Assembly: GCA_022770365.1 (NCBI GenBank) | Contig: JALEHU010000008.1 | Span: forward strand, 1 to 62,464 | DNA: 62,464 bases | Reading direction: 5' to 3' | From: Blautia sp. | GTDB taxonomy: Bacteria > Bacillota > Clostridia > Lachnospirales > Lachnospiraceae | In this document: piece after piece, positions 86 to 42,613 of the stretch | Position numbering within the stretch: the first letter of the stretch is position 1 | Layout of the letters: the number at the start of each line of letters is the position of its first letter | The notes under the pieces: generated by a model | Seen by the model: the letters and a program-made list of their open reading frames with translations, nothing else | Told to the model about the DNA's origin: nothing | The model's database searches: none | Made by a program: the position numbers and the translations under genes

Positions 86-730
86 TTGGAAGCGAATAAT
101 ATCGAGTTAATTACCAAAATGGTTATTGACGCCATTAATAAGGGCGAAAAGAAAACCAACGGATTTATGGTTCCGATCGGAGTTTCCGCGAGACACATTC
201 ACCTGACCCAGGAGCATGTGGAAGCATTGTTTGGCCCGGGGTATCAGCTCACAAAGAAAAAAGAACTGATGGGCGGACAATTTGCATCCAATGAGACAGT
301 CACGATTGTAGGATTAAAGCTTCGCGCAATTGAAAACGTGCGAATCCTCGGACCGGTGCGTAAAGCATCTCAGGTAGAGGTATCCGCAACAGATGCCATC
401 AAGCTTGGCATGAAAGTTCCGGTTCGCGAATCCGGCGATGTAAAAGGCAGTGCTCCGATTGCCATCGTAGGACCAAAGGGTGCCATTTATCTTCAGGAAG
501 GCTGTATTGTGGCTATGCGACACATCCATATGTCTCCGAAGGATGCGCAGGCAGCCGGTGTCAAAGACGGTGATATCGTATCTGTAAAGGCTGATAATGA
601 GCGCGGTACAATTTTCAATCATGTGAAAATCCGCGTACATGACAGCTTTACACTGGAAATGCATATTGATACTGATGAAGCAAATGCAGCACAGATTGCC
701 ACTGGCAATACAGTAACCATTATTAAATAA
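86..730 (+). CDS. pduL: Phosphate propanoyltransferase PduL
   Basis: PduL transfers the propanoyl group from CoA to phosphate, regenerating CoA inside the microcompartment and giving propanoyl phosphate for ATP formation. The 214 residues match the family length. Residues 2-20 (around NIELITKMVIDAI) form a short amphipathic helix of the encapsulation-peptide type, then a linker. Two PduL half-domains follow, each with a metal-binding histidine motif: SARHIHLT near residue 34 and MRHIHMSP near 143. The start is a TTG preceded by GCAGGTG; no in-frame ATG gives a complete protein. It lies between the shell-protein end and the vertex-protein gene, as expected for a lumen enzyme of this locus. Confidence 0.93.
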   Translation: MEANNIELITKMVIDAINKGEKKTNGFMVPIGVSARHIHLTQEHVEALFGPGYQLTKKKELMGGQFASNETVTIVGLKLRAIENVRILGPVRKASQVEVSATDAIKLGMKVPVRESGDVKGSAPIAIVGPKGAIYLQEGCIVAMRHIHMSPKDAQAAGVKDGDIVSVKADNERGTIFNHVKIRVHDSFTLEMHIDTDEANAAQIATGNTVTIIK

Positions 731-836
731 ACATTCCTCCATGCCAAGGCCGGTGGCAGAAATGTCACCGGCATTAGGAGGATTTAGGGGGTTGTTTTTA
801 AAAGACAATTTCTCAGATAAAAACGCGGAGGCTCAT

Positions 837-1103
837 ATGATTGTAGGCAAAGTAGTCGGAAGCGTAGTATCTACGCGCAAAAGTGAAAAGTTAATCGGAC
901 AGAAATTTATGATTGTTGAGCCAGTGAATCATATGAAAGCTGACCACAATCAGATTGTTGCAATCGATATGATCGGTGCAGGAATCGGAGAATATGTATT
1001 GGTGGCACAGGGAAGCGCAGCACGAATTGGCTGCGGCGTAGAAACAGCACCGGTTGATGCTGCGATTGTCGGTATCATTGATGATGGTGCAGGATTGGAG
1101 TAA
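837..1103 (+). CDS. pduN: Microcompartment vertex protein PduN (EutN/CcmL family)
   Basis: This 88-residue protein belongs to the EutN/CcmL family, whose pentamers cap the vertices of microcompartment shells. It starts MIVGKVVGSVVSTRKSEKL and contains the family segment DMIGAGIGEYVLVAQGSAAR with a C-terminal DAAIVGIIDD. The reading frame is open from 741, but the ATG at 837 has GCGGAGG five bases upstream and matches the family's usual start, so the longer version is rejected. It is four bases upstream of pduS, whose ribosome site lies inside the end of this gene, indicating translational coupling. Confidence 0.93.
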   Translation: MIVGKVVGSVVSTRKSEKLIGQKFMIVEPVNHMKADHNQIVAIDMIGAGIGEYVLVAQGSAARIGCGVETAPVDAAIVGIIDDGAGLE

Positions 1104-1107
1104 CGCC

Positions 1108-2436
1108 ATGGAAATCAAAGAATTACAGAAAATTATGCAGGAGAATGGTGTGGTAGGTGCCGGTGGCGCTGGTTTCCCGACATATGCAAAACTTACGGAC
1201 AAAGCCGACACGATTCTCATGAACTGTGCAGAGTGCGAACCTTTACTGAAGTTACACAGGCAGCTTCTTGAAAAGCATGCCTATGAGATTATGAAAACAT
1301 TCAACCTGATAGCGGAAACAGTAGGTGCTTCCGAGGCTATCATTGGAATCAAGAAATCTTATGTACAGACAGTTAAAGCGTTAGAGCAGCATATTGAAGA
1401 ATTCCCGAACATGCGGATCCACCTTCTGGAAGAAGTATATCCCATGGGAGACGAGGTTGTCCTGATTTATGAGGCAACCGGACGAGTAGTAAGGCCCGGC
1501 GGACTCCCGATTGAGCAGGGCGTAGCCGTGTTTAACGTAGAAACCATTTACAATGTTTACCGTGCTGTTGAAAAACAGAGACCGGTAACAGACAAATATG
1601 TATCCGTTGTAGCTGAAGTCAGCAATCCTGTCACAGTCAGAGTCCCTCTTGGCTGTACACTGGATGAGGTAGTTGCTCAGGCTGGCACAGTGACCATTAA
1701 GGAGCCTGTTTATTTTGTGGGCGGACCGATGATGGGACGGATCGGCAGCGGCTCAGAACCGGTAACCAAAACTACGAACGCAATTCTGGTCCTTCCAAAG
1801 GATCATCCTATTGTAATGAAGAAGTTAAGAACTTCTGCTATAGATCTGAAACGCGCAGCATCCATTTGCTGCCAGTGTAATACCTGTACGGATCTTTGTC
1901 CGAGAAATAATCTGGGACATCCGATTGATCCGGCCCGTTTCATGAGAGCAGCATCCAACAATGATTTCAGAGATCTGAATCCATACCTGGATGCAAGCTT
2001 CTGCAGTTCCTGCGGTGTCTGCGAGATGTATTCCTGTCCGCAGAGCCTGGCACCGAGAACACTCCTTGCTGATATGAAGGGTGGACTCCGAAAAGCAGGT
2101 GTCAGACCTCCACAGGGTGTTCAGCCAAAAGCTGTTCAGTCATCCAGAGAGTACCGTAAAGTTCCGGAAGAACGATTAATGGCACGTTTGGCTCTGACCA
2201 GATATGACAAGGATGCGCCAATGGATGAGACCCTTGTGGGAGTTCCGAAGGTAAAAGTCCTTTTAAGCCAGCATATCGGTGCGCCGGCACAGGCAATTGT
2301 AAGCGTAGGCGATGAAGTAACCAGAGGACAGATGATTGCACAGCCGGCAGGCGGATTAAGTGTTGGTATCCATGCAAGCATCTGCGGAAAAGTAACAGAA
2401 GTTACTGACCGCCATATTGTAATTGCAGCAAAGTAG
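1108..2436 (+). CDS. pduS: Microcompartment electron-transfer protein PduS (RnfC-like)
   Basis: PduS is an RnfC/NuoF-like flavin and Fe-S protein, thought to move electrons across or within the shell and to supply reduced cobalamin for adenosylation. The 442 residues show the N-terminal GAGGAGFPT nucleotide-binding segment (about residues 13-21), an SLBB-like middle, two cysteine clusters of ferredoxin type (CCQCNTCTDLC near 254 and CSSCGVCEMYSC near 297) and a C-terminal barrel-sandwich domain. The ATG at 1108 fits the GGAG at the end of pduN; the longer frame from 1054 overlaps pduN and is not supported. It pairs with pduT downstream, whose pore cluster is a proposed redox partner. Confidence 0.93.
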   Translation: MEIKELQKIMQENGVVGAGGAGFPTYAKLTDKADTILMNCAECEPLLKLHRQLLEKHAYEIMKTFNLIAETVGASEAIIGIKKSYVQTVKALEQHIEEFPNMRIHLLEEVYPMGDEVVLIYEATGRVVRPGGLPIEQGVAVFNVETIYNVYRAVEKQRPVTDKYVSVVAEVSNPVTVRVPLGCTLDEVVAQAGTVTIKEPVYFVGGPMMGRIGSGSEPVTKTTNAILVLPKDHPIVMKKLRTSAIDLKRAASICCQCNTCTDLCPRNNLGHPIDPARFMRAASNNDFRDLNPYLDASFCSSCGVCEMYSCPQSLAPRTLLADMKGGLRKAGVRPPQGVQPKAVQSSREYRKVPEERLMARLALTRYDKDAPMDETLVGVPKVKVLLSQHIGAPAQAIVSVGDEVTRGQMIAQPAGGLSVGIHASICGKVTEVTDRHIVIAAK

Positions 2437-2452
2437 AAAGGACGTGCAGAAC

Positions 2453-3001
2453 ATGAGTAAAGCAATCGGAATGATTGAATTTAAAACCACAGCCACAGGT
2501 ATTACTGCAGCAGATGCCATGGTTAAGACATCTGAAGTGGAGATTGTGGAAGCGCAGACCGTATGTCCGGGCAAATATATTGCAATTGTCACCGGCGATT
2601 TAAGTGCGGTAAAAGCAGCCGTTGATGCAGCGGTTACTACATATGAAGACAAATGTATTGACAGCTTCGTGCTGGGCAATCCTCATGAATCAATTTTCCC
2701 GGCTATCTATGGAACCACTTCCGTAGAAGATATCAGCGCTTTGGGAATCCTGGAAACCTACGATGCTGCCTCTATTATCGAGGCGGCAGATCAGGCTGCC
2801 AAGACAGCAATTGTAGATCTGATCGAACTCCGTATCGCAAAAGGTATGTGCGGTAAATCCTACATGCTGATTACCGGTGAGGTTTCCGCAGTAGAGGCTT
2901 CTATCGAAAGAGCAAAAGAGCTTGTCGCAGAAAAGGGTATGTATCTGGATTCTTCCGTTATTGCTCATCCTGACAGGCGTATGATTGATTCCATCTTATA
3001 A
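2453..3001 (+). CDS. pduT: Trimeric tandem-BMC shell protein PduT
   Basis: The 182 residues contain two consecutive BMC domains (roughly 1-90 and 95-182), the architecture of trimeric pseudohexameric shell proteins. Cys38 in the loop TVCPGK falls at the position where PduT trimers bind a [4Fe-4S] cluster in the central pore, so this tile probably carries electrons rather than metabolites. The second domain ends SSVIAHPD, the usual BMC closing segment. The ATG at 2453 follows AAAGGACG; an earlier in-frame ATG would overlap pduS. Its place directly after pduS agrees with a PduS-PduT redox conduit. Confidence 0.92.
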   Translation: MSKAIGMIEFKTTATGITAADAMVKTSEVEIVEAQTVCPGKYIAIVTGDLSAVKAAVDAAVTTYEDKCIDSFVLGNPHESIFPAIYGTTSVEDISALGILETYDAASIIEAADQAAKTAIVDLIELRIAKGMCGKSYMLITGEVSAVEASIERAKELVAEKGMYLDSSVIAHPDRRMIDSIL

Positions 3002-3037
3002 GTATTACCATCCTTAGTAAAGGAGGGCAAAAACATA

Positions 3038-3808
3038 ATGCTGGCATTAGAAAGACGTAATCTGATCCTTGAAAAGCTGCAGCTCGAAAAACGGGTAGTT
3101 GTCAGTGAACTCAGCCAGATGTTTGATGTTTCGGAGGAGACGATCCGCCGGGACCTTGACAAACTGGAAAAAGAGGGGCTTGCTACCAAAAGTTACGGAG
3201 GTGCAGTGATCAACGAGGATGTAAGTATCGATTTGCCCTTTAACGTCCGTAAGAACCAGAATGTTGCGGGAAAGCAGAAAATGGCTGAAATCACAGCATC
3301 ACTGGTACAGGAAGGTGATCATATTTTTCTGGACGCCAGTACTACGGCAGTTTTTGTAGCCAAGGCGCTGAAAGAAAAAGAACGCCTTACTGTGATTACA
3401 AATTCCGTGGAGATCCTTTTGGAATTATCTGATGTATCCGGATGGAATATTATTTCCACCGGAGGAGTGATGAAAGAAGGATACCTTGCTTTCCTTGGAT
3501 CCAAAACGGAAGAAGCAATCCGTTCTTATTACGTTGATAAGGTGATTTTCTCTTGTAAAGCCCTGGATCATAACTGGGGCATCATGGAATCTCAGGAACC
3601 GTTCGGAACAACCAAAAAAGCAATGGTGGCTTCCGCACGGGAAAAATTCCTGGTGATCGACAGTACAAAATTTGATCAGACCGCGTTTTCTGTAGCGGGA
3701 AATCTGCGGGATGTGGATGTGGTTGTGACAGATATAAAACCATCTGAAAAATGGCTGAAGCATTTTGAGGAACTGGGAGTTGAATGTAAGTATCCGTCAG
3801 AAACATAA
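3038..3808 (+). CDS. DeoR/GlpR-family sugar-responsive transcription regulator
   Basis: This 256-residue protein has an N-terminal winged helix (residues 1-57, with VSELSQMFDVSEETIRRDL) and a C-terminal DeoR sensor domain of the phosphosugar-binding type, beginning near residue 75. The family usually represses sugar catabolic operons and is released by a phosphorylated intermediate. It sits inside the pdu operon between the shell gene pduT and pduQ, with AGGAGGG before the ATG, so it is likely a local regulator of this locus or of the linked fucose/rhamnose genes. The effector cannot be read from sequence; FucR-like regulation by fuculose-1-phosphate is an inference. Confidence 0.88.
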   Translation: MLALERRNLILEKLQLEKRVVVSELSQMFDVSEETIRRDLDKLEKEGLATKSYGGAVINEDVSIDLPFNVRKNQNVAGKQKMAEITASLVQEGDHIFLDASTTAVFVAKALKEKERLTVITNSVEILLELSDVSGWNIISTGGVMKEGYLAFLGSKTEEAIRSYYVDKVIFSCKALDHNWGIMESQEPFGTTKKAMVASAREKFLVIDSTKFDQTAFSVAGNLRDVDVVVTDIKPSEKWLKHFEELGVECKYPSET

Positions 3809-3865
3809 CAGATGACAGGAGATTTGCAATGCGGCGAATCATCCACAGATAAAGGAGCATTTAAT

Positions 3866-5017
3866 ATGAAAACCTTTGAAATGAAGACAGTCATTCATTT
3901 TGGGGATAATTCTCTGGACAGACTTCGTGTTCTTCCATACAAAAGAGTTCTGATTATTACAGATCCTTTTGTTGTACAGAGCAAAATGGTTGACTTGATA
4001 ACTGCGCCACTTGAAAAAGGCAAAATACAGTATGATATTTTCTGTGACGTGGTACCGGATGCACCGGTAGGGAAAATTGCGGAGGGTGTTAAAAAATTTC
4101 TTGAGTTTCAGCCGGATGCGATTGTAGCAGTCGGTGGCGGATCAGCCATTGACTCTTCAAAAGCGATCCGTGAATTTGCTTTAAAAATCAATAACTATGG
4201 TAAAGTAGGACTGATTGCCATTCCTACCACCAGCGGAACAGGATCTGAGGTGACTTCTTTTGCGGTTGTCAACGATACAGATGCAAGAGTAAAATATCCT
4301 CTTGTTTCTGACAGTCTTACGGCTGATGAAGCAATCCTGGACGCGGAACTGGTGAAGAGTGTGCCGCCGGCCATTACAGCAGATACCGGTATGGATGTAT
4401 TCACCCATGCGCTGGAATCTTATGTAAGTACAGAGCACAATGAATTTTCTTCTGCGCTTGCGGAGAAATCCATTGAGATCTGCGGCGTTTTCCTGCTTCG
4501 TGCGTATCTTGACGGCAGTGATATGCACGCACGCCAGAAAATGCATGTAGCTTCCTGTCTTGCAGGTCTTTCTTTTAATACCGCAGGACTTGGAATTACT
4601 CACAGTATGGCACATCAGCTTGGTGCGATGTTCCATATTCCCCATGGAAGAGCCAATGCGATGCTTCTTCCGCACATTGTGGAATTTAATGCGAACATCA
4701 ATAAACACAGCAGAAGCCAGAAGGAGTATCTTCCGGCAGTGAAGAGATATGCGAATATTGCTCATATTCTCGGATTGAGTAATTATAATAAAGTTATGAG
4801 CGTTCGCTCTCTTGTAAACTGGATACAGTTTATGCTGAAAGAGATGAATATTCCAATGACCATACAGGAAATCGGAACGATTACTCCGGATGCTTATTTT
4901 GCTGCTGTTGACAAGATGGCAGATGCTGCTCTTGCAGATGCCTGCACAGCAAATAATCCGAGAATTCCTACCAAGGAAGATATCATAAAGATTTATACCA
5001 AATTGTGGTCATTCTAA
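3866..5017 (+). CDS. pduQ: Iron-containing 1-propanol dehydrogenase PduQ
   Basis: A group III iron-dependent alcohol dehydrogenase of 383 residues. In the microcompartment PduQ reduces propionaldehyde to 1-propanol and regenerates NAD+. The nucleotide-binding segment GGGSAIDSSKA is near residue 91, and the metal ligands lie in the TADTGMDVFTHALESY segment and in THSMAHQLGAMFHIPHG. The ATG at 3866 has AAAGGAG nine bases before it; the longer frame from 3812 lacks family similarity. A terminator-like hairpin follows at 5022-5052. No obvious encapsulation peptide is seen at the N terminus, so how it reaches the lumen is unclear. Confidence 0.88.
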   Translation: MKTFEMKTVIHFGDNSLDRLRVLPYKRVLIITDPFVVQSKMVDLITAPLEKGKIQYDIFCDVVPDAPVGKIAEGVKKFLEFQPDAIVAVGGGSAIDSSKAIREFALKINNYGKVGLIAIPTTSGTGSEVTSFAVVNDTDARVKYPLVSDSLTADEAILDAELVKSVPPAITADTGMDVFTHALESYVSTEHNEFSSALAEKSIEICGVFLLRAYLDGSDMHARQKMHVASCLAGLSFNTAGLGITHSMAHQLGAMFHIPHGRANAMLLPHIVEFNANINKHSRSQKEYLPAVKRYANIAHILGLSNYNKVMSVRSLVNWIQFMLKEMNIPMTIQEIGTITPDAYFAAVDKMADAALADACTANNPRIPTKEDIIKIYTKLWSF

Positions 5018-5021
5018 ACGG

Positions 5022-5052
5022 AAAAGGTCCGGCTTTAACACCGGGCTTTTTT
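5022..5052 (+). terminator. Internal terminator-like hairpin between pduQ and pduC
   Basis: AAAAGGUCCGG pairs with CCGGGCUUUU around an eight-base loop (11 pairs, two of them G-U) and runs straight into a T tract. It lies in the 52-base gap between pduQ and pduC, 17 bases before pduC. It may act as a partial terminator that sets the ratio of upstream to downstream products. Confidence 0.7.
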
Positions 5053-5069
5053 GGAAAAGGGTAGACAAT

Positions 5070-6734
5070 ATGAAACGATCGAAAAGAATCGAGGCGTTGG
5101 ATCAGCGTGCTGTCAATAAAGACGGATTTATTGATGAATGGCCGGAGATGGGCTTTGTAGCAATGCACAGTCCATATGATCCAAAACCTTCCATAATTGT
5201 AGAAAATGGAATCATAACAGAACTGGACGGAAAGAAACGCGCGGATTTCGATTTTCTGGATCAGTTTATCGCTGACTATGCGATCCGTATTGACAGGGCG
5301 GAAACCTCTATGGCAATTCCATCACTGGAGATTGCCAGAAAGATTGTGGATATTCAGACCTCCCGCAAGGAGATCCTGGAAATCGTATCCGGCATTACGC
5401 CTGCCAAAATGGTAGAAGTCATCAACTACCTGAATGTAGTAGAGATGATGATGGGCATGCAGAAAATGCGTGCAAGAAAAGTACCCGGAAACCAGGCTCA
5501 TATTACCAATCTGAAGGATGATCCGGTGCAGATTGCTGCAGATGCTGCAGAAGGCGCACTTCGCGGCTTTAGTGAGGAAGAGACCACCATGGGTGTTGCC
5601 AGATATGCACCGTTCAGCGCTATGGCACTGCTGATCGGTTCCCAGGTGGGACGTCCCGGCGTACTGACTCAGTGCTCTGCAGAGGAAGCAACAGAGCTGG
5701 AACTGGGTATCCGCGGCCTTACCACATATGCGGAGACACTTTCCGTATATGGAACAGAGAAGGTATTTATTGACGGTGATGATACACCGTATTCCAAAGC
5801 ATTTTTGAATTCTGCTTATGCATCCCGCGGCCTGAAGGTACGTTTTACCTCCGGAGCCGGTTCAGAGGTACTGATGGGTTCCAGTGAACGAAAATCCATG
5901 CTGTATCTGGAATGCCGCTGTCTTTATGTGACCAAGGGTGCAGGCAGCCAGGGGATCCAGAACGGTTCTGTAAGCTGTATCGGTGTTGCTGCCGGTGTAC
6001 CTGCAGGTATCCGTGAAGTGATGGGTGAAAACCTGGTGGCAGCTCTACTGGGACTGGAATGCGCGTCATCCAATGACCAGAGTTTTTCCAATTCTGATAT
6101 GAGAAGAACTGCGAGAACCATGCTTCAGTTCATGCCGGGTACGGATTTTATTTTCTCCGGATATGCGGCAGAACCGAACTACGATAACATGTTTGCAGGT
6201 TCCAACTTTGATGCGGAAGACTTTGACGATTACAATGTCATGCAGAGAGATATGCAGGTGGACGGCGGTCTTCGTCCGGTAACAGAAGAAGATGTGATCC
6301 GTGTCCGCCGTGAAGCAGGCAAGGCAGTGCAGGCAGTATTTAAATATCTTGGACTTACGGAAGTAACCGACGAACAGGTGGAAGCGGTCACGTATGCACA
6401 TGGAAGCAAAGATACCCTGAAACGTGATGTCGCTTCTGACCTGATGGCTGCTGATGACATGATGAAACGGGGAATCACAGGCGTTGATGTGGTAAAAGCC
6501 CTTGCAGAAAGCGGCTACACAAAGCTTGCTGAGAATATCCTGAATATGCTGAAGCAGAGAGTCATCGGTGACTATATGCATACGGCAGCCATTCTGGATG
6601 AGAATTTCCAGGTAATGTCCGGCGTGAATACTCCAAACGATTATATGGGACCGGGAACCGGTTATCGTGTTACCGGCAAACGCTGGGAGGAAATCAAAGC
6701 GATTCCTCACAGGATTGATGTAAATGAATTTTAG
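5070..6734 (+). CDS. pduC: Propanediol dehydratase large subunit PduC
   Basis: Large catalytic subunit of adenosylcobalamin-dependent diol dehydratase, converting 1,2-propanediol to propionaldehyde with PduD and PduE in the microcompartment lumen. The 554 residues equal the family length. Recognisable active-site segments include NQAHIT (Gln and His that contact substrate), GFSEEETTMG and CSAEEATEL (substrate and metal glutamates), QNGSVSCIG, and SSNDQSF with the catalytic Asp and the adjacent Gln typical of diol rather than glycerol dehydratases. Start ATG is preceded by AAAAGGG. It opens the pduCDEGHO block, in which pduD, pduE and pduG are tightly packed or overlapping. Confidence 0.97.
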   Translation: MKRSKRIEALDQRAVNKDGFIDEWPEMGFVAMHSPYDPKPSIIVENGIITELDGKKRADFDFLDQFIADYAIRIDRAETSMAIPSLEIARKIVDIQTSRKEILEIVSGITPAKMVEVINYLNVVEMMMGMQKMRARKVPGNQAHITNLKDDPVQIAADAAEGALRGFSEEETTMGVARYAPFSAMALLIGSQVGRPGVLTQCSAEEATELELGIRGLTTYAETLSVYGTEKVFIDGDDTPYSKAFLNSAYASRGLKVRFTSGAGSEVLMGSSERKSMLYLECRCLYVTKGAGSQGIQNGSVSCIGVAAGVPAGIREVMGENLVAALLGLECASSNDQSFSNSDMRRTARTMLQFMPGTDFIFSGYAAEPNYDNMFAGSNFDAEDFDDYNVMQRDMQVDGGLRPVTEEDVIRVRREAGKAVQAVFKYLGLTEVTDEQVEAVTYAHGSKDTLKRDVASDLMAADDMMKRGITGVDVVKALAESGYTKLAENILNMLKQRVIGDYMHTAAILDENFQVMSGVNTPNDYMGPGTGYRVTGKRWEEIKAIPHRIDVNEF

Positions 6735-6745
6735 GAGGCCCTGCT

Positions 6746-7423
6746 ATGGAAGTGAATGAACAACTGATACAAGCCATAACCAGAGCGGTCGTGGAGCAGT
6801 TGCAGCGAAGTGGTGCACAGCCGACGACCACATCTTCCCAGGGAACTCAGAGTCTTGCCGGGAAGACCAGAATGCGTCCGAAACGTTCCTATGAAGGAGC
6901 GGCAAGAGCAAAACAGGGTACAGACCCGAAAGAAGTTGTCATTGGTGTAGGGGCTGCTTTCCAGACAGAGATCACCAAAACCATCGGAGGAATTCCGCTG
7001 GATGAGGTGCTTCGGAATGTAAAAGCCGGAATCGAAGAAGAAGGAATGGTTTCCCGTGTGGTGAAAGTTCTGGATACTTCTGATGTAGGATTCATGGCGC
7101 TGCAGGCAGCAAAGCTTTCCGGTTCCGGAATCGGTATCGGAATCCAGTCCAAGGGAACAACTGTGATTCACCAGAAGGATCTTTATCCGCTGACGAATCT
7201 GGAGCTTTTCCCGCAGGCACCATTGATGGACCTTGAAACCTACCGTAAGATCGGCAGGAACGCAGCCAAATATGTAAAAGGGGAAAAGGTTACTCCCATT
7301 GAGTGCACCAACGACCCTATGGTACGTGCAAAATTCCAGGTAAAAGCGGCGCTGATGCATATTATTGAGACAGAGCAGCTTGACCCGGAGAAAGGCATGA
7401 TTGTATGGGAGGGCACAAAATGA
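6746..7423 (+). CDS. pduD: Propanediol dehydratase medium subunit PduD
   Basis: Medium subunit of diol dehydratase (225 residues, the usual size), forming the cobalamin-binding face with PduC. Residues 1-20 (MEVNEQLIQAITRAVVEQL) are an amphipathic helix of the encapsulation type, followed by a Ser/Thr-rich linker and the folded domain from about residue 50 (KEVVIGVGAAFQTEI). The segment GIGIGIQSKGT near residue 130 belongs to the cobalamin-contacting region. AGGAGG precedes the ATG, and the stop overlaps the start of pduE in an ATGA, indicating coupled translation. Confidence 0.96.
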   Translation: MEVNEQLIQAITRAVVEQLQRSGAQPTTTSSQGTQSLAGKTRMRPKRSYEGAARAKQGTDPKEVVIGVGAAFQTEITKTIGGIPLDEVLRNVKAGIEEEGMVSRVVKVLDTSDVGFMALQAAKLSGSGIGIGIQSKGTTVIHQKDLYPLTNLELFPQAPLMDLETYRKIGRNAAKYVKGEKVTPIECTNDPMVRAKFQVKAALMHIIETEQLDPEKGMIVWEGTK

Positions 7424-7815
7424 GCAACTATCCTTTAGGGCAGAACGAAGCCGACACCATTACATCCAAAACCGGGAAGAAACTTTCCCAGATCACACTG
7501 GATGAAGTAAAGCGCGGCAATGTTGCTGCTGAAGACATCAAAATATCACCGGAAATGCTGAAAAGACAGGGTCAGGTGGCAGCTGCTGCCGACAATCCTC
7601 AGATGGAAGCAAACTTTGAGAGAGCGGCAGAGCTTTCCAATGTCCCGGATGATGTGATTTTAACCATGTATAACAAGCTTCGCCCGAACCGTTCTACCAA
7701 GAAAGAGCTGGTTCTCATGGCACAGGAACTTCTGGAAAAATATCATGCTCCTCATTGTGCCAAACTGGTGCTGGAAGCTGCTGAAATTTATGAAAAAAGG
7801 GGAATTCTTCTTTGA
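7420..7815 (+). CDS. pduE: Propanediol dehydratase small subunit PduE (short form)
   Basis: Small subunit of diol dehydratase, 131 residues. The conserved body is clear: YPLGQNEAD at the start, ERAAELSNVPDDVIL and NKLRPNRSTKKEL in the middle, and a terminal helix. It begins directly at the YPL segment, so it lacks the extra N-terminal stretch of about 40 residues found in the approximately 170-residue enterobacterial PduE. In length it is closer to glycerol dehydratase small subunits. The ATG overlaps the pduD stop (ATGA) and the gene's own TGA overlaps the TTG start of pduG. Confidence 0.94.
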   Translation: MSNYPLGQNEADTITSKTGKKLSQITLDEVKRGNVAAEDIKISPEMLKRQGQVAAAADNPQMEANFERAAELSNVPDDVILTMYNKLRPNRSTKKELVLMAQELLEKYHAPHCAKLVLEAAEIYEKRGILL

Positions 7816-9626
7816 AACTGATTGCAGGTGTTGACATAGGAAATTCCACAACTGAAGTATGTATCGGCGCAGTGGGAGAGAACGGAAGCTTCCGTTTTCT
7901 CTCCAGTGCTTCCCGTATGACCACCGGAACCAAGGGGACTCTTCCAAATGTTCTGGGAATCAAGGCGGCGCTTGAGGAAGCAATGGACAGGATCCGTCAG
8001 CCTCTTGGTGCCCTTGATCTTGTGCGCCTGAATGAGGCGGCACCTGTCATCGGCGATACGGCGATGGAAACGATTACAGAGACCATCATTACGGAATCTT
8101 CCATGATCGGGCACAACCCGTCGACACCGGCAGGTGCGGGAGAGGCTGTTGGACAACTTCTTTTTCTGGAGAATATCTGGAAGGGAAAACCTGGAGTGCC
8201 GTACATTGTGGCGGCTGCAAGCAAGTTTTCCTATGAGGAGGTTGCTGCAAGACTGAACCAGCACATCCCGGAACTGGATGTCCGGGGACTGATTCTCCAG
8301 GCAGATGAAGCGGTTCTTGTGGAAAACCGTCTGAGCAAAAAGATGCCGATCGTGGATGAGGTGCGTCATATCAGCAAAGTGCCGGAAGGCAAACTGGCAG
8401 CGATTGAGGTGGCACTTCCCGGTACCAGTATCCGGATGCTCTCAAATCCATATGGAATTGCCACACTTCTGGGATTGAATGCAGAGGAGACGAAATCCGT
8501 AACCCCCATTGCCAAAAGCCTTGTGGGCAAGCGGAGTGCGGTTGTGATCCGTACCCCTCATGGAAACATCAGAGAAAATGTGCTTCCTGCCGGTGAAATT
8601 GTTTTTCACGGAGATAAGGAAGCAAATGTAAATATTGATGCCGGAGCAGACAAAATAATGGAAACTCTGGCGTCCGCCGGAGAAATCCGTGATATTGACG
8701 GCGAGCAGGATACCAATGTGGGAAATATGCTCCGCAGGATCAAGACAAGCATGGCGGATGTGGCAAAAGAGCATGAAGGCGGCAGTGATATCCGGATTAC
8801 GGATATCCTGGCGGTGGATACTCTGGCCCCGGTGGAGATCTCAGGCTCTCTTGCAGGGGAAACCTGTATGGAAAAAGCGGTTGGAATTGCTGCCATGGTA
8901 AAGACCCAGCATCTTCCCATGCAGAAAATCGCAGAGAGACTGGAACAGGAACTGCATGTGAAAGCAGTTGTTGCAGGAGTGGAAGCTGTGATGGCTTCTC
9001 TTGGTGCAATGACCACACCCGGCACGAAGCTTCCCCTTGCGATTCTTGATATGGGAGGCGGGTCCACAGATGCTGCGGTACTTCAGCCGGATGGAAGTGT
9101 AAAAACAACACATCAGGCAGGCGCAGGTGAACTGGTCTCCATGCTGATCCAGACAGAGCTGGGTCTGCACAGCAGAACAACAGCGGAACAGATCAAAAAA
9201 TATCCGATGGGTAAGGTGGAAAGCCTTTTTCACATGCGTCTGGAAAATGGATCCATGCAGTTTTTCGAGGAATCCATTGACCCCAGATATTACGGCCATG
9301 TGGTTCTCCTTGCACCAGGTGAAATGCTGAAGGTGGAAGAGGATATCCCCATGGAGAAGATTCTGGAAGTACGCCGGGAGGCCAAGAAGAAAGTCTTTGT
9401 GAGAAATGCGCTTCGGGCACTGGAAATCGTAGCACCGGATCATGATCTGCGGAAGATCCCCAATGTAGTACTGGTTGGTGGATCGGCAGAGGATTTTGAG
9501 ATACCGGAGATGCTGATGGAAGTTCTGTCTGATTACCGGATTGTCTGCGGCCGTGGAAATATCCGCGGAGTAGAAGGTCCGAGAAATGCAGTAGCCACAG
9601 GATTGCTTTTATCGTATCTGGGATGA
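7812..9626 (+). CDS. pduG: Diol dehydratase reactivase large subunit PduG
   Basis: PduG is the ATPase subunit of the chaperone-like reactivase that removes damaged cobalamin from inactivated diol dehydratase. The 604 residues match DdrA/PduG proteins. The N terminus AGVDIGNSTTEVC and the later segment LAILDMGGGSTDAAV (about residue 412) are phosphate-binding loops of the actin/Hsp70-like fold, and VVLVGGSAEDFEIPEM lies near the C terminus. Translation starts at a TTG overlapping the pduE TGA, with AAAAGGGG upstream. Partner PduH is encoded 49 bases downstream. Confidence 0.95.
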   Translation: MKLIAGVDIGNSTTEVCIGAVGENGSFRFLSSASRMTTGTKGTLPNVLGIKAALEEAMDRIRQPLGALDLVRLNEAAPVIGDTAMETITETIITESSMIGHNPSTPAGAGEAVGQLLFLENIWKGKPGVPYIVAAASKFSYEEVAARLNQHIPELDVRGLILQADEAVLVENRLSKKMPIVDEVRHISKVPEGKLAAIEVALPGTSIRMLSNPYGIATLLGLNAEETKSVTPIAKSLVGKRSAVVIRTPHGNIRENVLPAGEIVFHGDKEANVNIDAGADKIMETLASAGEIRDIDGEQDTNVGNMLRRIKTSMADVAKEHEGGSDIRITDILAVDTLAPVEISGSLAGETCMEKAVGIAAMVKTQHLPMQKIAERLEQELHVKAVVAGVEAVMASLGAMTTPGTKLPLAILDMGGGSTDAAVLQPDGSVKTTHQAGAGELVSMLIQTELGLHSRTTAEQIKKYPMGKVESLFHMRLENGSMQFFEESIDPRYYGHVVLLAPGEMLKVEEDIPMEKILEVRREAKKKVFVRNALRALEIVAPDHDLRKIPNVVLVGGSAEDFEIPEMLMEVLSDYRIVCGRGNIRGVEGPRNAVATGLLLSYLG

Positions 9627-9675
9627 AACACATATTAACAAAGCAAAAGAACCGGATGGAATGTGAGGGACGGGT

Positions 9676-10023
9676 ATGGTTGTGAATAGACCTGCAATTA
9701 TCATATATGTACAGGAACCGGATGAGGATCTGCTGAGGGAAGTCTGTGCCGGAATTGAAGAAGAAGGAGTTCTTTTTCAGGTGCAGAATCATGAGGGAGA
9801 TCTGGATACCCTTGCTTATGATGCTGCAAACGAATCCATGCTCGGTGCCGGAATAGGGATGACCGGAGCCAGACTTGCCATGCAGATGCAAAGACTTCCC
9901 AGAGGAAAAAATGTATTTGAACTGATTGCTCCGGCTTTCTGGCAATGCCGGAATCTTGGTGCGAACAGTGCGAGAGCAATTAAAAAAATGCCGTTTAAAT
10001 CCATATATGAGAGCAAAAACTGA
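9676..10023 (+). CDS. pduH: Diol dehydratase reactivase small subunit PduH
   Basis: Small subunit of the diol dehydratase reactivase, 115 residues, resembling the dehydratase medium subunit so that it can swap with it during cofactor release. Visible family segments are CAGIEEEGVLFQV, MLGAGIGMTGARLAMQM and the C-terminal NSARAIKKMPFK. The ATG follows GAGGGACGGGT. It acts with PduG and is followed 62 bases later by the cobalamin adenosyltransferase gene, so cofactor removal and renewal are encoded together. Confidence 0.93.
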   Translation: MVVNRPAIIIYVQEPDEDLLREVCAGIEEEGVLFQVQNHEGDLDTLAYDAANESMLGAGIGMTGARLAMQMQRLPRGKNVFELIAPAFWQCRNLGANSARAIKKMPFKSIYESKN

Positions 10024-10085
10024 GAATGATCAGTTTTTTGCGGGATTATCGGAGACAAATCGGTTGTATTTCGGGGGATGCCGTT

Positions 10086-11117
10086 ATGAACATTTATACC
10101 AGGAACGGAGACAGAGGCACTACAGACCTGATCCGTACAAAAAACGTTTCCAAGTCGGATGACCGTATCCAGCTTGTGGGAACCATAGATGAGCTGACGA
10201 GCCATCTTGGGCTGGTGAAAACCATGCTGAAGGATCAGGAAGCGATCCGCACTCTGGAGAAGATTCAGGGTACGTTGATTACGGTGATGGCTGGAGTGGC
10301 AGACCCTTATAACAGAGATTACAAAATCAATGACGATAAGACAGAAATCCTGGAAGAGGAAATCGACCGCATGGAAAAACTGTTTGATCGTCCGAAAAAA
10401 TTTATTCTTCCGGGAGCATGCCGGTTATCCGCGGAAATCGATGTTGCCCGCACGGTGGCCAGAAGAGCGGAGCGTGCACTGGCACTTGTCAGTGTGAAAT
10501 TCGGCGCTGATACCGGAACGAAGAAATTCATGAACCGGCTGGCAGATTATCTTTATGTGCTGGCGCGATATGTCGATGCAAAAGAAGCCGGCAAACTTCA
10601 TCCTCAGGCTTCAGAAACAGAAAGGGTGACATCTATGGGAGAAAATCAGAATGGTACAGCCAGTGAGGCTGTGATCCAGGAAGTTTTGAAGCGCATGGGA
10701 ATTCAGGGAAGAATCACCCTGGCAAGTGCCAAAAAGCTGATCGAAAAGATCGAAGAAGAGGCGAACCGCCGGGGTAAAAAGGCAGTTATCGCCATCTGCG
10801 GTCCGGATGGAAACCCGATTGCAGTCCATGTAATGGATGGTGCTTTTCTTGTAAGCTTTGATGTAGCCTTGAAAAAGGCATATACTTCCGTTGCAGTAAA
10901 AATGACGACGATGGAGCTGAGTAAACTTGCCCAGCCGGGCGGTACATTTTACGGTGTTGACAAGATGGACGGCGGTAAGATCGTTATCTTTGGCGGCGGT
11001 GTTCCGATCAAGGTGGGAGATACGATTATCGGAGGACTCGGCGTCAGCGGCGGTACAGGTGAAGAAGACCACAGCCTGGCAGAGTATGGCCTGTCGGTTC
11101 TGAACGAAGTTTTGTAA
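10086..11117 (+). CDS. pduO: PduO: cob(I)alamin adenosyltransferase fused to GlcG/HbpS domain
   Basis: A 343-residue two-domain protein. Residues 1-180 are a PduO-type ATP:cob(I)alamin adenosyltransferase, with the N-terminal IYTRNGDRGTTDLI ATP loop, the VGTIDELTSHLG segment and the conserved TVARRAERA helix. After a linker near residue 180, residues 190-343 form a GlcG/HbpS (DUF336) domain with GGGVPIKVGDTIIGGLGVSGG; in PduO this domain binds haem. The enzyme supplies adenosylcobalamin to PduCDE. The ATG at 10086 has GGGGGA upstream; the longer frame from 10026 adds a non-homologous leader. It is the last gene of the pdu run. Confidence 0.94.
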   Translation: MNIYTRNGDRGTTDLIRTKNVSKSDDRIQLVGTIDELTSHLGLVKTMLKDQEAIRTLEKIQGTLITVMAGVADPYNRDYKINDDKTEILEEEIDRMEKLFDRPKKFILPGACRLSAEIDVARTVARRAERALALVSVKFGADTGTKKFMNRLADYLYVLARYVDAKEAGKLHPQASETERVTSMGENQNGTASEAVIQEVLKRMGIQGRITLASAKKLIEKIEEEANRRGKKAVIAICGPDGNPIAVHVMDGAFLVSFDVALKKAYTSVAVKMTTMELSKLAQPGGTFYGVDKMDGGKIVIFGGGVPIKVGDTIIGGLGVSGGTGEEDHSLAEYGLSVLNEVL

Positions 11118-11423: not shown

Positions 11424-11450
11424 TTAGCACTCAATTAGAATGAGTGCTGA
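11424..11450 (+). promoter_or_regulatory. CIRCE operator (HrcA-binding site) upstream of lon
   Basis: TTAGCACTC-N9-GAGTGCTGA matches the CIRCE consensus TTAGCACTC-N9-GAGTGCTAA at 17 of 18 positions, with the exact nine-base spacer. CIRCE is the operator of the HrcA heat-shock repressor, normally in front of groESL and dnaK operons. A weak TTTACA (11411) to TAGAAT (11436) promoter with a long 19-base spacer would place the -10 box inside this operator. The site ends 31 bases before the lon start codon. Confidence 0.88.
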
Positions 11451-17543: not shown

Positions 17544-17546
17544 GTG

Positions 17547-18230
17547 ATGGATGTGAATCATGGTGATAAATATGAGATTCTGAAGAAATATTTCGGATAT
17601 GATCAGTTCAGAGATGGTCAGGAGATGCTGATCGATCATATTCTTGCAGGTAAGGATGTGCTGGGAATTATGCCTACCGGGGCCGGAAAATCACTTTGTT
17701 ATCAGATTCCGGCACTGATGATGAAGGGAATTACCCTGGTGATCTCACCTCTGATTTCTTTGATGAAGGATCAGGTGAGCAGTCTGAATCAGGCTGGAAT
17801 TTCCGCTGCCTATCTGAACAGTTCTCTGACAATGAATCAGTATTACAAGGCACTTCAGTACGCGTCTCAGGGGCGGTATCATCCGGTAATAAGAGAACTG
17901 GTCCTGGAGAGGGACAGAGAACGCCTGAAAAAAATGACATATTACTGTTTCACTCATGAATGCCTTCGGGAATACATCCTGCGGTATTTCGGGGAATACA
18001 GTTCCAACTACTGCGGAAACTGTTCCAATTGTCTGGAGAACATAAATACGGTAAATACGGAAGGAAATTCCTGGATGAAATCAACAGGACGGGTTTCCCT
18101 GAGTGACACATTTGCAGCGAAAAGAAAATGCGGGAGCATCTGGAAGGATACTTCCGCATTTCTTGTTCATGCACGTTTGTATTTCCCGGGGGTGATTCCT
18201 TTATATTTTTTAAATGTGCGGATAAAATAA
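17547..18230 (+). pseudogene. recQ: RecQ helicase remnant with large internal deletion
   Basis: Residues 1-112 are the N-terminal part of RecQ, including [10 protein letters not shown], Walker [16 protein letters not shown] and [10 protein letters not shown]. The frame then jumps to the RecQ zinc-binding domain (residues 125-168: [26 protein letters not shown]). The DEAD-box motif II, the second helicase domain and the winged-helix/HRDC region are absent, so about 260 residues are missing in the middle and the C terminus is lost. After about 18050 the frame runs on as unrelated sequence into the 3' end of the convergent AraC gene. It cannot be an active helicase. The reading frame is preserved across the deletion. 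Confidence 0.82.
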
Positions 18231-19015
18231 CTGAGATCATTAAATCCATTACGATAGGCGATTTCTGTAATGGAATCGTCCGTCGTGGACAGCTGATAGC
18301 ATGCCTGTTCGATCCGCTGATGGTTCAGGTAATCCATAGGAGTCTGGTGGGTCATTTCTGAAAAAAACCTGCAGAAATATTTGGGTGACATGGACACGGA
18401 GGCAGACAATTGCTGAAGGGTGAGAGGAGCGGCATAGTTGTGCTCGATAAATTCCAGTACCTGTTTCAGCTGCAGAATACGCTTGTAATCCCTGCGTGCC
18501 TTGGTGATGCCGTCCAGATAGTAATGATTACTAAAAACAAGACCGAAAAAGTGGTAAAATTGTCCAAGAACAATCAGCTCATAACCGGGTGCTTTTTTCC
18601 ACATGGCGTCAAAAATGCTGTCCAGAACAGCCTGGATTTCCGGATATTTCTCAGTAAAATGATGATAAATTAAAATATCCTGATGAATTACTTTCTGCAT
18701 ATATCCTGCGCAGACGGAATTGTGTTTCAGAAATACGTTTCCGTCAAAAACAAGGCACTGGTAGACACAGTCAGAGGGAATGCCGCTGTGCAGGATTCCG
18801 CTATGGACAAAAATCACATCTCCCGACATGGCAGTAAAGCTTTTTTCGTCTAAAGTGACAGCAAGAGTGCCTTTGAGAATGCGGATGATCTCGTATTCCA
18901 CATGCCAGTGGTAGGACATGACATAACTCGGGTGCGTATTTTCCACATGGTGGAACTCAAAAGGAAAATCATAAGTCCCTCTTGGCCGGTCTTCATTATG
19001 GTCTAAATCATGCAA
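18167..19015 (-). CDS. AraC-family transcription activator with cupin domain
   Basis: The 282-residue protein has an N-terminal cupin sugar-binding domain (about 20-110, with [14 protein letters not shown]) and two C-terminal AraC helix-turn-helix motifs (about 185-282, ending in [17 protein letters not shown]). This is the RhaS/RhaR-type architecture. Translation starts at a TTG with AAGGAAGGTG upstream. It is divergent from fucI across a 178-base region with face-to-face promoter elements, so fucI is the likely target and fucose or a related sugar the likely ligand; that is inference from position. Confidence 0.88.
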
Positions 19016-19143: not shown

Positions 19144-19193
19144 TCAATTATAAAGAAAAGAAGAAAATATAAATAACGGAGGTATTTTTTATC

Positions 19194-20987
19194 ATGGCAG
19201 AAAGCAGATTAATCGGAAGCTACCCAGTAATCGGTATCAGACCAACAATTGACGGACGCCGCGGTGTTCTGAAGGTTCGTGAATCTCTGGAAGAGCAGAC
19301 CATGAACATGGCAAAATCCGCAGCTAAATTATTTGAAGAGAATATCAGATATTCCAATGGCGAGCCTGTAAAAGTTGTTATCGCAGACACCACCATCGGA
19401 CGTGTTGCTGAATCCGCAGCGTGCGCTGATAAATTCAGAAAAGAAGGCGTTGACATTACAGTAACTGTTACTCCTTGCTGGTGCTATGGTTCCGAGACAA
19501 TGGATATGGATCCTCAGACCATCAAAGCTGTATGGGGCTTCAACGGAACAGAAAGACCTGGTGCAGTTTATCTTGCATCCGTTCTTGCTACACATGCACA
19601 GAAAGGTCTTCCGGCATTCGGTATTTACGGACATGATGTTTGTGAAGCAGACGACACAAGTATTCCTGCTGACGTTGAAGAGAAACTTTTAAGATTCGGA
19701 CGTGCAGCAGTTGCAGCAGCTTCCATGAGAGGCAAATCCTATTTACAGATCGGTTCCATCTGTATGGGTATCGGCGGATCCATCATCGATTCCGATTTCA
19801 TTGAGTCTTAACTTGGAATGCGTGTAGAATCTGTTGATGAGGTAGAAATCATTCGTCGTATGACAGAAGGTATCTACGATGAAGCAGAATATCAGAAAGC
19901 TCTTGCATGGGCAAAAGAAAAATGCAAGATCGGTTTCGATAAGAACCCGGCAGAACTGCAGATGTCTGATGAGAAGAAAGAAGAGCAGTTCGAATTTGTA
20001 GTTAAGATGGCAGTTATCATCAAAGACCTTATGAACGGCAACAAGAATCTTCCGGCCGGATGCGAAGAAGAGATGGTTGGACATAATGCTCTTGCTGCTG
20101 GTTTCCAGGGACAGAGACAGTGGACAGACTTCTATCCGAACTGTGATTTCCCGGAAGCTATGCTGAATACTTCCTTTGACTGGAACGGAGCAAGAGAGCC
20201 GTACATTCTGGCAACCGAGAACGACGTACTGAACGGTCTTGGAATGCTCTTTATGAAACTTCTTACCAACCGTGCTCAGATGTTCGCAGATGTTCGTACA
20301 TACTGGAGCCCGGAAGCAGTTAAGAAAGCTACAGGCTATGACCTTGAAGGCGTTGCAAAAGAAAACGGCGGATTTATTCATCTGATCAACTCCGGTGCAT
20401 GCTGTCTTGATGCTAACGGTGCTGCAAAAGATGCTGACGGCAATGGCGTGATGAAACCATGGTATGAAGTAACTCAGGAAGACCAGGATGCAATTATGGA
20501 AAATACTACCTGGAACTTCGCAGACCTTGGATATTTCCGTGGCGGCGGATATTCTTCCAGATTTGAGACAAAAGCAGAAATGCCGGCTACCATGATCCGT
20601 CTGAACCTTGTAAAAGGCCTTGGACCGGTTCTTCAGATTGCAGAAGGCTGGACAGTACATCTTCCGGAAGAAGTTTCTGATAAACTTTGGAAACGTACAG
20701 ACTACACATGGCCATGTACCTGGTTTGCTCCAAGATGTACAGGCGAAGGCGCATTCAAGACTGCTTACGATGTAATGAATAACTGGGGTGCTAACCACGG
20801 CGCAATCTCCTATGGCCACATCGGTGCAGATCTGATCACTATGTGCTCTATGCTTAGAATCCCGGTTTGTATGCACAACGTTCCGGAAGAAAAGATTTTC
20901 CGTCCGGCTGCATGGAATGCATTCGGTATGGATAAAGAAGGCGCAGATTTTAGAGCATGCAAGAATTACGGACCACTTTACAAATAA
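19194..20987 (+). pseudogene. fucI: L-fucose isomerase FucI interrupted by an in-frame TAA
   Basis: The reading frame covers the whole of L-fucose isomerase (597 codons; E. coli FucI has 591) but codon 206 (19809-19811) is TAA. The upstream part (205 residues) ends [10 protein letters not shown], and the same frame resumes [12 protein letters not shown], where the E. coli protein reads DFFESWLGM. A sense codon has therefore become a stop, with no frameshift. The downstream part (ATG at 19818, 389 residues) keeps the metal-site and catalytic regions, including [19 protein letters not shown] and NWGANHG. It has no ribosome site before its ATG. FucI converts L-fucose to L-fuculose. Unless the stop is an error or is suppressed, the enzyme is split. 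GGAGG precedes the first ATG by 11 bases. Confidence 0.88.
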
Positions 20988-21003
20988 TCAGCAAGCGGTT
21001 TAC

Positions 21004-21036
21004 AGGTCCTCCGGAATATCCGGAGGACCTGTTTTG
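21004..21036 (+). terminator. Terminator after fucI
   Basis: AGGTCCTCCGG and CCGGAGGACCT form a perfect 11-base stem with a five-base loop, followed by GTTTTGT. It lies 16 bases after the fucI stop. Confidence 0.88.
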
Positions 21037-22658: not shown

Positions 22659-23102
22659 TTATCCGTTAATTACAACACCCTTCTGCAGCATAACATTTGC
22701 ATAAAGAGCCTTTTCACTTGTAGAAATAATACAGTAAGCAGTTTTTGCTTCGTCATAGAAAGCAAAACGTTCGATATTGCCGACTGATGCAGCACCACGC
22801 TCATCATGTTTTGCAATAATCTCTTTATAAGTATCCCAGATCGGAGTTTCTACATCATCACCAGGCATAACTTCCATCAGATTAACCGGATGTTCTACAT
22901 ATGTATCCAGCGGGAATAACTGCAGGATTGCATCCAGAATTTCCGGAACACCGTGTCCGTCACAGCGGATCGTGATCGCATTTTTGCCCATGGATTCTAC
23001 CGGGAAATTGCCGTCAGCGATAACAAGACGGTCACTGTGACCCATCTCACATAAAACTTTTAATAATTCAGGGGATAAAATTTCAGGAATTCCTTTTAAC
23101 AT
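22659..23102 (-). CDS. fucU: L-fucose mutarotase FucU (RbsD/FucU family)
   Basis: FucU interconverts the alpha and beta anomers of L-fucose (and, in the wider family, ribose pyranose/furanose) to feed isomerases or kinases. The 147 residues match the family: MLKGIPEILSPELLKVLCEM, GHSDRLVIADGNFP with the catalytic His, and a C-terminal VMLQKGVV. The start at 23102 has AAAGGAG upstream; the open frame extends 77 codons further without homology. It is transcribed away from the aldolase operon, sharing a 315-base control region, so it may be co-regulated with either the broken fucI or that operon. Confidence 0.9.
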   Translation of the reverse strand: MLKGIPEILSPELLKVLCEMGHSDRLVIADGNFPVESMGKNAITIRCDGHGVPEILDAILQLFPLDTYVEHPVNLMEVMPGDDVETPIWDTYKEIIAKHDERGAASVGNIERFAFYDEAKTAYCIISTSEKALYANVMLQKGVVING

Positions 23103-41091: not shown

Positions 41092-42498
41092 ATGGCAACT
41101 TATTATTTAGCAGTGGATATGGGAGCATCTAGCGGACGTCTGATTCTGGGACACATGGAAAATGGAAAGATGGAGCTGGAAGAAGTTCATCGCTTTGAGA
41201 ACGGAATGGTGAAAAAAGACGGAGAGCTTTGCTGGGAATTCGACCGTATCTTCAAAGAAATCATCATTGGAATGAAAAAATGCAAAGAGATGGGCAAGAT
41301 TCCGGTAAGTATGGGGGTTGATACCTGGGGTGTTGACTTTGTACTTCTTGATAAAGATGACAAAGTACTGGGCAATACCGTTGGTTATCGTGATCATCGT
41401 ACAGAAGGTATGGATGAAGAAGTTTATAAAATCATTTCTCTGGAAGATCTGTATGCAAGAACCGGTATCCAGAAAGCAATCTTTAACACCATTTATCAGC
41501 TGATGGCTGTCAAGAAAAAACATCCGGAGTATCTGGAACAGGCAGAGACCCTGCTTCATGTACCGGATTACTTCCATTATCTTCTGACGGGAGTAAAGAC
41601 CAATGAATATACAGAAGCTACAACAGGACAGCTTGTAAACCCTCATACAAAAGAATGGGATTATGAGTTGATTGATATGCTGGGATATCCAAGAAAAATG
41701 TTCCAGAAACTGATCATGCCGGGTACTGTGATTGGTCATCTCTCTGAAGAAGTACAGAAAGAAGTCGGTTTTGACCTGGAAGTGGTTGCACCTGCAACTC
41801 ATGATACCGGATCTGCAGTACTGGCTGTACCGGCAAATGATGACGACTTTATCTACATCAGCTCCGGAACATGGTCCTTAATGGGTCTGGAAAGAGAAAC
41901 TGCAGACTGCTCCAAAAAGAGCTGTGAAATGAATCTGACCAATGAGGGCGGATATGCAGGACGATTCCGTTACCTGAAGAACATCATGGGACTCTGGATG
42001 ATCCAGTCTGTCCGTCATGAAGTTAATGATATGTACAGCTTCGCGGAAATCTGTTCTATGGCAGAAGAAGCCAAAGACTTCCCGTCCAGAGTGGATGCCA
42101 ATGACGAGTGCTTCCTTTCCCCGGATAATATGACTGAGGAAGTGAAGGATTACTGCCGCAGAACAGGACAGCCTGTTCCGGAAACTATGGGTGAGATCGC
42201 GACTGTTATTTATACCAGCCTTGCAGAATGCTATGCAAAAACAGCTAAGGAACTGGAAGAAATGACAGGCAGAACATACAGCCGCATCCATGTTGTAGGC
42301 GGTGGTTCCAATGCAGGATATCTGAATGAACTGACAGCTAAAGCGACAGGTAAAGAAGTTCATGCAGGTCCTGGAGAAGCAACTGCAATCGGCAATATTA
42401 CTGCTCAGATGCTGAAAGCAGGAGAATTCAATACCGTTGAGGATGCCCGTACTATGATCCATGAATCATTTGGCATCAAGATCTATAAACCGGAATAA
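41092..42498 (+). CDS. rhaB: Rhamnulokinase RhaB
   Basis: Phosphorylates L-rhamnulose to rhamnulose-1-phosphate. The 468 residues begin YLAVDMGASSGRLILG, contain GVDTWGVDFVLLD, GYRDHRTEGM, ISSGTWSLMG and the C-terminal VVGGGSNAGYLNELTA, all characteristic of RhaB. AGGAGGG precedes the ATG. The 193-base gap upstream contains TTGACA at 40959 without a good -10 at standard spacing, consistent with activator-dependent expression. rhaA follows in the same direction. Confidence 0.95.
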   Translation: MATYYLAVDMGASSGRLILGHMENGKMELEEVHRFENGMVKKDGELCWEFDRIFKEIIIGMKKCKEMGKIPVSMGVDTWGVDFVLLDKDDKVLGNTVGYRDHRTEGMDEEVYKIISLEDLYARTGIQKAIFNTIYQLMAVKKKHPEYLEQAETLLHVPDYFHYLLTGVKTNEYTEATTGQLVNPHTKEWDYELIDMLGYPRKMFQKLIMPGTVIGHLSEEVQKEVGFDLEVVAPATHDTGSAVLAVPANDDDFIYISSGTWSLMGLERETADCSKKSCEMNLTNEGGYAGRFRYLKNIMGLWMIQSVRHEVNDMYSFAEICSMAEEAKDFPSRVDANDECFLSPDNMTEEVKDYCRRTGQPVPETMGEIATVIYTSLAECYAKTAKELEEMTGRTYSRIHVVGGGSNAGYLNELTAKATGKEVHAGPGEATAIGNITAQMLKAGEFNTVEDARTMIHESFGIKIYKPE

Positions 42499-42613
42499 TC
42501 CGGAAAAATTGAAATAAATGCAACAGTTCAGATGAACCGGGCTGTTACAGAGAACGAGCAAAATGGATTGAGAATATCCGTTTTCCATAAACTATTACCA
42601 GGAGGAAACAACA

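Follow-up and report, generated by a model that had tools for sequence, protein, structure and literature searches.

A premature stop codon in the L-fucose isomerase gene of a Blautia draft genome: probably a recent nonsense allele

The fucI locus

The stretch of DNA analysed here (62,464 nucleotides, referred to below as the window) corresponds to contig C100 in a Blautia draft genome of 3.0 Mb (G000; 130 contigs, 85% complete, 3% contamination). At positions 19194-20987 of its forward strand lies a frame for L-fucose isomerase (fucI) of 597 codons before the final stop, an internal TAA counted, and on translation this TAA (codon 206, 19809-19811) is the sole interruption of the frame. The original prediction described just such a lesion, a single in-frame ochre codon with the same frame and family similarity on both sides of it, and translation and profile matches confirm both points. 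The first piece (19194-19811), 205 codons and then TAA, is matched over residues 9-204 to positions 2-195 of the TIGR01089 (fucI) profile, and the second (19818-20987), an open frame of 389 residues that begins at the next ATG, is matched over residues 1-389 to positions 200-587. Neither piece alone reaches the curated cut-off of this model (337.4 and 627 bits, respectively, for a cut-off of 850 bits), and the two together show collinear, full-length similarity in one frame; as they fall on adjoining stretches of the same NCBIfam models, they represent one gene in one frame. The FucI of an intact relative (L003) aligns with the window frame over 597/597 positions at 97% identity, with one TAA inside, and, as this alignment crosses the TAA without a shift, a frameshift in place of a stop is ruled out.

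The two pieces together also align near full length with known structures (E. coli FucI 1FUI and 4C20-4C22, D-arabinose isomerase 3A9R and 6K1F), and what sets the window's frame apart from E. coli FucI is the single stop, which falls near residue 200 of the E. coli protein. The Raoultella enzyme is described, in the available part of the source (PMC6894278), as a hexamer of subunits with domains N1 (residues 5-172), N2 (173-352), and C (353-591), each pocket combining the N2 and C domains from one subunit with the N1 domain from another, with Glu337, Asp361 (given as 359 at one place in the paper), and His528 as metal ligands. On this scheme the first piece holds N1 plus some 27 residues from the beginning of N2, and the second holds most of N2, the C domain, and, by an alignment with the known structures read by hand, the positions of all three metal ligands. 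No paper on a fucose isomerase with a premature stop codon was found, and among the papers listed by related searches none has a title or an abstract opening that names the window's allele.

Immediately 3' of fucI, a hairpin of 14 pairs with a short T-rich tail (TTTGTC; 21002-21032, plus strand) is predicted by folding as a possible terminator: the 60-base stretch folds at -28.5 kcal/mol (z -6.95), and the hairpin is absent from the output of a simple terminator scan. fucI may thus be transcribed as a single-gene unit, in which case the stop would do no polar harm to its neighbors. On the other side of the gene, a recQ sequence (17544-18230) is a remnant, with stretches that correspond to about residues 30-138 and 383-433 left of a frame that has 640 residues in the nearest genome (G051), most of the remainder being absent. 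The 227-residue remnant is found at 100% identity on seven contigs (P0241; the longest of 5,811 bp), and the recQ damage is therefore shared.

Neighboring genes linked to the fucose route are in place, as had been predicted for fucU, the regulator, and the propanediol microcompartment. The divergent AraC-family gene (18167-19015, minus strand), with family matches of which none is over a curated cut-off, is found beside fucI in relatives too, and it likely regulates fucI. A FucU/RbsD-type mutarotase gene (22659-23102, minus strand; NF011949, 116.9 bits, below the cut-off of 141) has its start set by hand inside a longer frame. The microcompartment locus (86-11117, plus strand) encodes PduC, PduD, PduG, phosphate propanoyltransferase, and cobalamin adenosyltransferase, all over cut-off, along with a PduE-type protein and a PduT-type shell protein below cut-off. 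For rhamnose, rhaB (rhamnulokinase) and rhaA (L-rhamnose isomerase), at 41092-43873 on the plus strand, are both open and over cut-off (TIGR02627 and TIGR01748). Three sugar kinases of the window were scored as L-fuculokinase and all fall short of the cut-off, and the fucose route is thus traced only in part.

The aldolase of the pathway is probably to be sought on another contig of the same genome, C53, which encodes a class II aldolase, over its Pfam cut-off and under every NCBIfam cut-off, adjoining a PduP-type aldehyde dehydrogenase and an alcohol dehydrogenase. At two loci (L041 and L043) these three genes lie directly upstream of the window's microcompartment genes, and two of the three are visible at another locus (L036), which is truncated there, suggesting that C53 is probably the missing left neighbor of the window. 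The C53 aldolase is likely shared by the fucose and rhamnose routes. One example of such sharing is the related bacterium Clostridium phytofermentans, for which, in the available part of PMC3557285, one aldolase and one microcompartment are proposed for both sugars. The window, taken with C53, resembles the pathway outlined there for C. phytofermentans and Roseburia inulinivorans in having a microcompartment locus with a propanediol dehydratase, in having a class II aldolase, which is proposed to serve both sugars, in having separate isomerases for fucose and rhamnose, and, by eye, in a frame (3038-3808) that resembles a DeoR-type regulator. It differs in the dehydratase, which in the window matches the PduC/PduD and PduG families and in that pathway, as far as the available text goes, is an enzyme of the B12-independent glycerol-dehydratase-like kind, listed along with its activator. 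It differs further in the fucose isomerase, which in the window is interrupted. With a microcompartment that may serve rhamnose too, and with open rhaA and rhaB, retention of the microcompartment is not puzzling.

Codon 206 in relatives

The original prediction held that one base change from a tyrosine codon would explain the TAA and called for codon 206 to be compared in related strains; none of the relatives compared has a stop at this codon. Tyrosine occupies the aligned position in 29/29 loci of the same genus (those fetched from the 50 other genomes with a fucI match), in 80/80 named loci (the best 80 of 589), and, in an alignment, in 119 of 120 proteins among the matches listed, the remaining one having no residue there. 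Across the family, 113 fucI matches (the window's own counted, three of them partial) were found in 111 of 397 sampled genomes; the window's alone carries an internal stop. A wide loss of fucI in the family is thereby ruled out. For L-rhamnose isomerase, taken as a yardstick, stops occur in three of 121 matches (111 of 397 genomes), and those three may lie near an end; such lesions thus appear rare, yet not unheard of, in these genomes. A survey of the genus with the C-terminal piece, a query blind to codon 206, returned open frames of 599 or more in 47 of 53 rows, the other six being the window itself, four that start or stop short (three of them at contig starts), and one match of 39% identity.

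Two observations on fucI elsewhere are recorded here in their own right. One of the 80 named loci, from a roe deer gut draft genome (L091, JAFTQL010000048.1), carries a lone in-frame TAA of its own at codon 263 of fucI. In addition, two FucI proteins (P0053 and P0061) have an identical, unrelated tail beyond about residue 305, which suggests a shared insertion or break in fucI.

The genome itself contains one fucI match in total, both with the C-terminal 389 residues and with a full-length relative as the query, and the search for a second fucI that had been proposed as a check thus found none in the 85%-complete draft; given a draft in 130 contigs at this completeness, a second isomerase could be missing from it.

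An intact allele and the age of the stop

A nonsense pseudogene of recent origin is expected to have one stop in a gene otherwise undamaged, and to be accompanied by an intact allele in close relatives. The window's fucI fits this description, with nothing different about it beyond the particular gene, and the disabling change is indeed absent from the close relatives. A database protein (P0122), found on six contigs (the longest of 134,147 bp), is uninterrupted and differs from the window's FucI at residue 206 alone, the remaining 596 positions being identical. The existence of this protein implies that the stop is private to one strain or one assembly. Codon 206 aside, the FucI of G051, the nearest genome, departs from that of the window in nine places, and a database protein under the name Blautia sp. 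HCP3S3_G3 shows the same nine differences.

The branch leading to the window since the split from G051 allows the stop to be dated approximately. With 24 changes that could not be assigned left out, this branch has 3 nonsynonymous and 33 synonymous changes behind the stop and 2 nonsynonymous and 14 synonymous changes before it. By simple counts, neutral evolution over the whole branch would have produced about 125 nonsynonymous changes behind the stop; the 3 observed (upper Poisson bound 7.75) thus place the stop within roughly the last 6% of the branch at most, a bound obtained by hand arithmetic on raw, uncorrected counts. By these measures the part of fucI behind the stop shows no decay, a result that an assembly error or a still-working gene would predict equally.

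The first of these, an error of assembly or base calling or a minority variant in the consensus, with an ordinary, intact fucI in the living strain, must be taken seriously, even if we consider it the less probable account. A wrong base in the assembly would look the same, the genome is a fragmented draft with some contamination, and the rest of the protein is undecayed and identical to an allele present on six contigs. It also agrees with an error that no 205-residue FucI fragment of 100% identity is found among the 120 listed of 4404 matches (the best listed is at 95%), although the proteins behind these matches are clustered at 90% and an identical fragment could hide inside a cluster. Against it, the comparison of the window with relatives, which reaches to about 39 kb with gaps, shows an internal stop in no sense gene apart from fucI, the other flagged rows being, on inspection, antisense frames or stretches upstream of a start. 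In addition, the damaged recQ is present at full identity on contigs of which the longest, by its size, is not the window's own, so that this part of the contig is no artefact. Should any of the contigs that encode P0121 to P0123 come from the same sample as the window, an assembly error would become more likely.

One of these proteins, P0121 (581 residues, on a contig of 5811 bp), is identical to the intact P0122 except that residues 129-144 (16 residues) are missing in frame, which represents either a further fucI lesion of another kind or a misassembly; its contig has the size of the longest contig with the recQ remnant (5811 bp). If both lesions were real, fucI would have been lost repeatedly within one lineage of this species, by a TAA in one assembly and by the 16-residue gap in another. 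We regard this as improbable. If true, it would mean that the entry of fucose was stopped while the fucosidases and a rhamnose-fed microcompartment stayed, such strains releasing fucose to their neighbors.

Restart and read-through

The second way to account for the absence of decay, a gene that still works, may be considered in two forms. In the first, ribosomes would restart at the ATG two codons past the TAA, and the resulting fragments, separated close to the N1/N2 border, would come together as a working hexamer. The in-frame ATG six bases behind the stop, a cut about 27 residues behind the domain border in an enzyme whose N1 domain is described as serving the pocket of a neighboring subunit (PMC6894278, available part), and a second piece without relaxed selection are all compatible with this. 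The translation signals speak against it. The start at 19194 is preceded by a ribosome-binding site, GGAGGT (19178-19183, plus strand), with an anti-Shine-Dalgarno pairing of -10.9 kcal/mol, versus -2.4 kcal/mol at the ATG at 19818, and 36 of the 54 other ATGs inside fucI pair as well as the latter or better. The claim that no ribosome site serves the downstream ATG is thus borne out to the extent that it lacks a good one, with the caution that among 13 other gene starts used as a yardstick pairing is 0.0 at 11440 and -4.8 at 5070 (-7.3 to -11.8 at the other eleven), and weak pairing, found at one or two of these starts as well, is alone no proof against initiation. Moreover, the same methionine is present in intact relatives and is hence no adaptation, the catalytic piece would be deprived of the start of N2, and an uninterrupted, otherwise identical allele exists. 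Taken together, these points make a split enzyme very improbable.

In the second form, a suppressor tRNA or leaky decoding would read through the TAA and yield some full-length FucI. The lack of decay behind the stop agrees with this too, but no TTA anticodon is found among the 31 tRNAs of the genome, an incomplete set in which tRNA-Tyr has the anticodon GTA, and the compared part of the window has no other sense gene with an internal stop. Of all the explanations considered, this is the one to which we give the least credence, and neither restart nor read-through has positive support. Of the 31 tRNA matches, 30 were read by ARAGORN and the 31st is a tRNA-Sec (anticodon TCA) encoded on contig C30 of the same genome (L156); from this gene, the organism probably makes selenoproteins.

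Consequences for fucose utilization

Overall, the stop in the window's fucI most likely reflects either an ordinary recent breakage or an assembly error, with no new mechanism involved. Of these, we consider it probable that it is a nonsense allele of very recent origin, confined to the strain or subpopulation from which the assembly derives, and that it blocks the entry of fucose. Ribosomes would start at 19194 and end at codon 206, producing a 205-residue fragment that comprises N1 and the beginning of N2. The remaining 389 residues, with the metal site, would not be made at any useful level, as the next ATG has no good ribosome site. Without this part there would be no active site, and L-fucose, as well as D-arabinose, the other substrate of the enzyme, would be barred at the only isomerase detected, while rhamnose would still feed the aldolase, the propanediol dehydratase, and the microcompartment. 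Judged from the gene sequence, both the FucI enzyme and growth on fucose would be lost. One observation counts against such a loss: all six GH29-family matches of the genome, of which four lie on one contig and one is weak (29.8 bits, cut-off 25.2), are free of stops, and stop-free fucosidase matches would be expected were fucose still used. The proposal that the strain has lost the entry step from fucose therefore stands as the likeliest mechanism, but it does not extend to all close relatives, as the uninterrupted FucI on six contigs demonstrates.

In conclusion, a reading of gene content would credit this organism with the use of fucose and with the formation of propanediol from it, when, as sequenced, the entry step should be absent. 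If the stop is an error, it shows the care needed when pathways are called from draft genomes. If it is real, it provides a natural pair of otherwise identical alleles with which the worth of fucose use to a gut commensal may be assessed.
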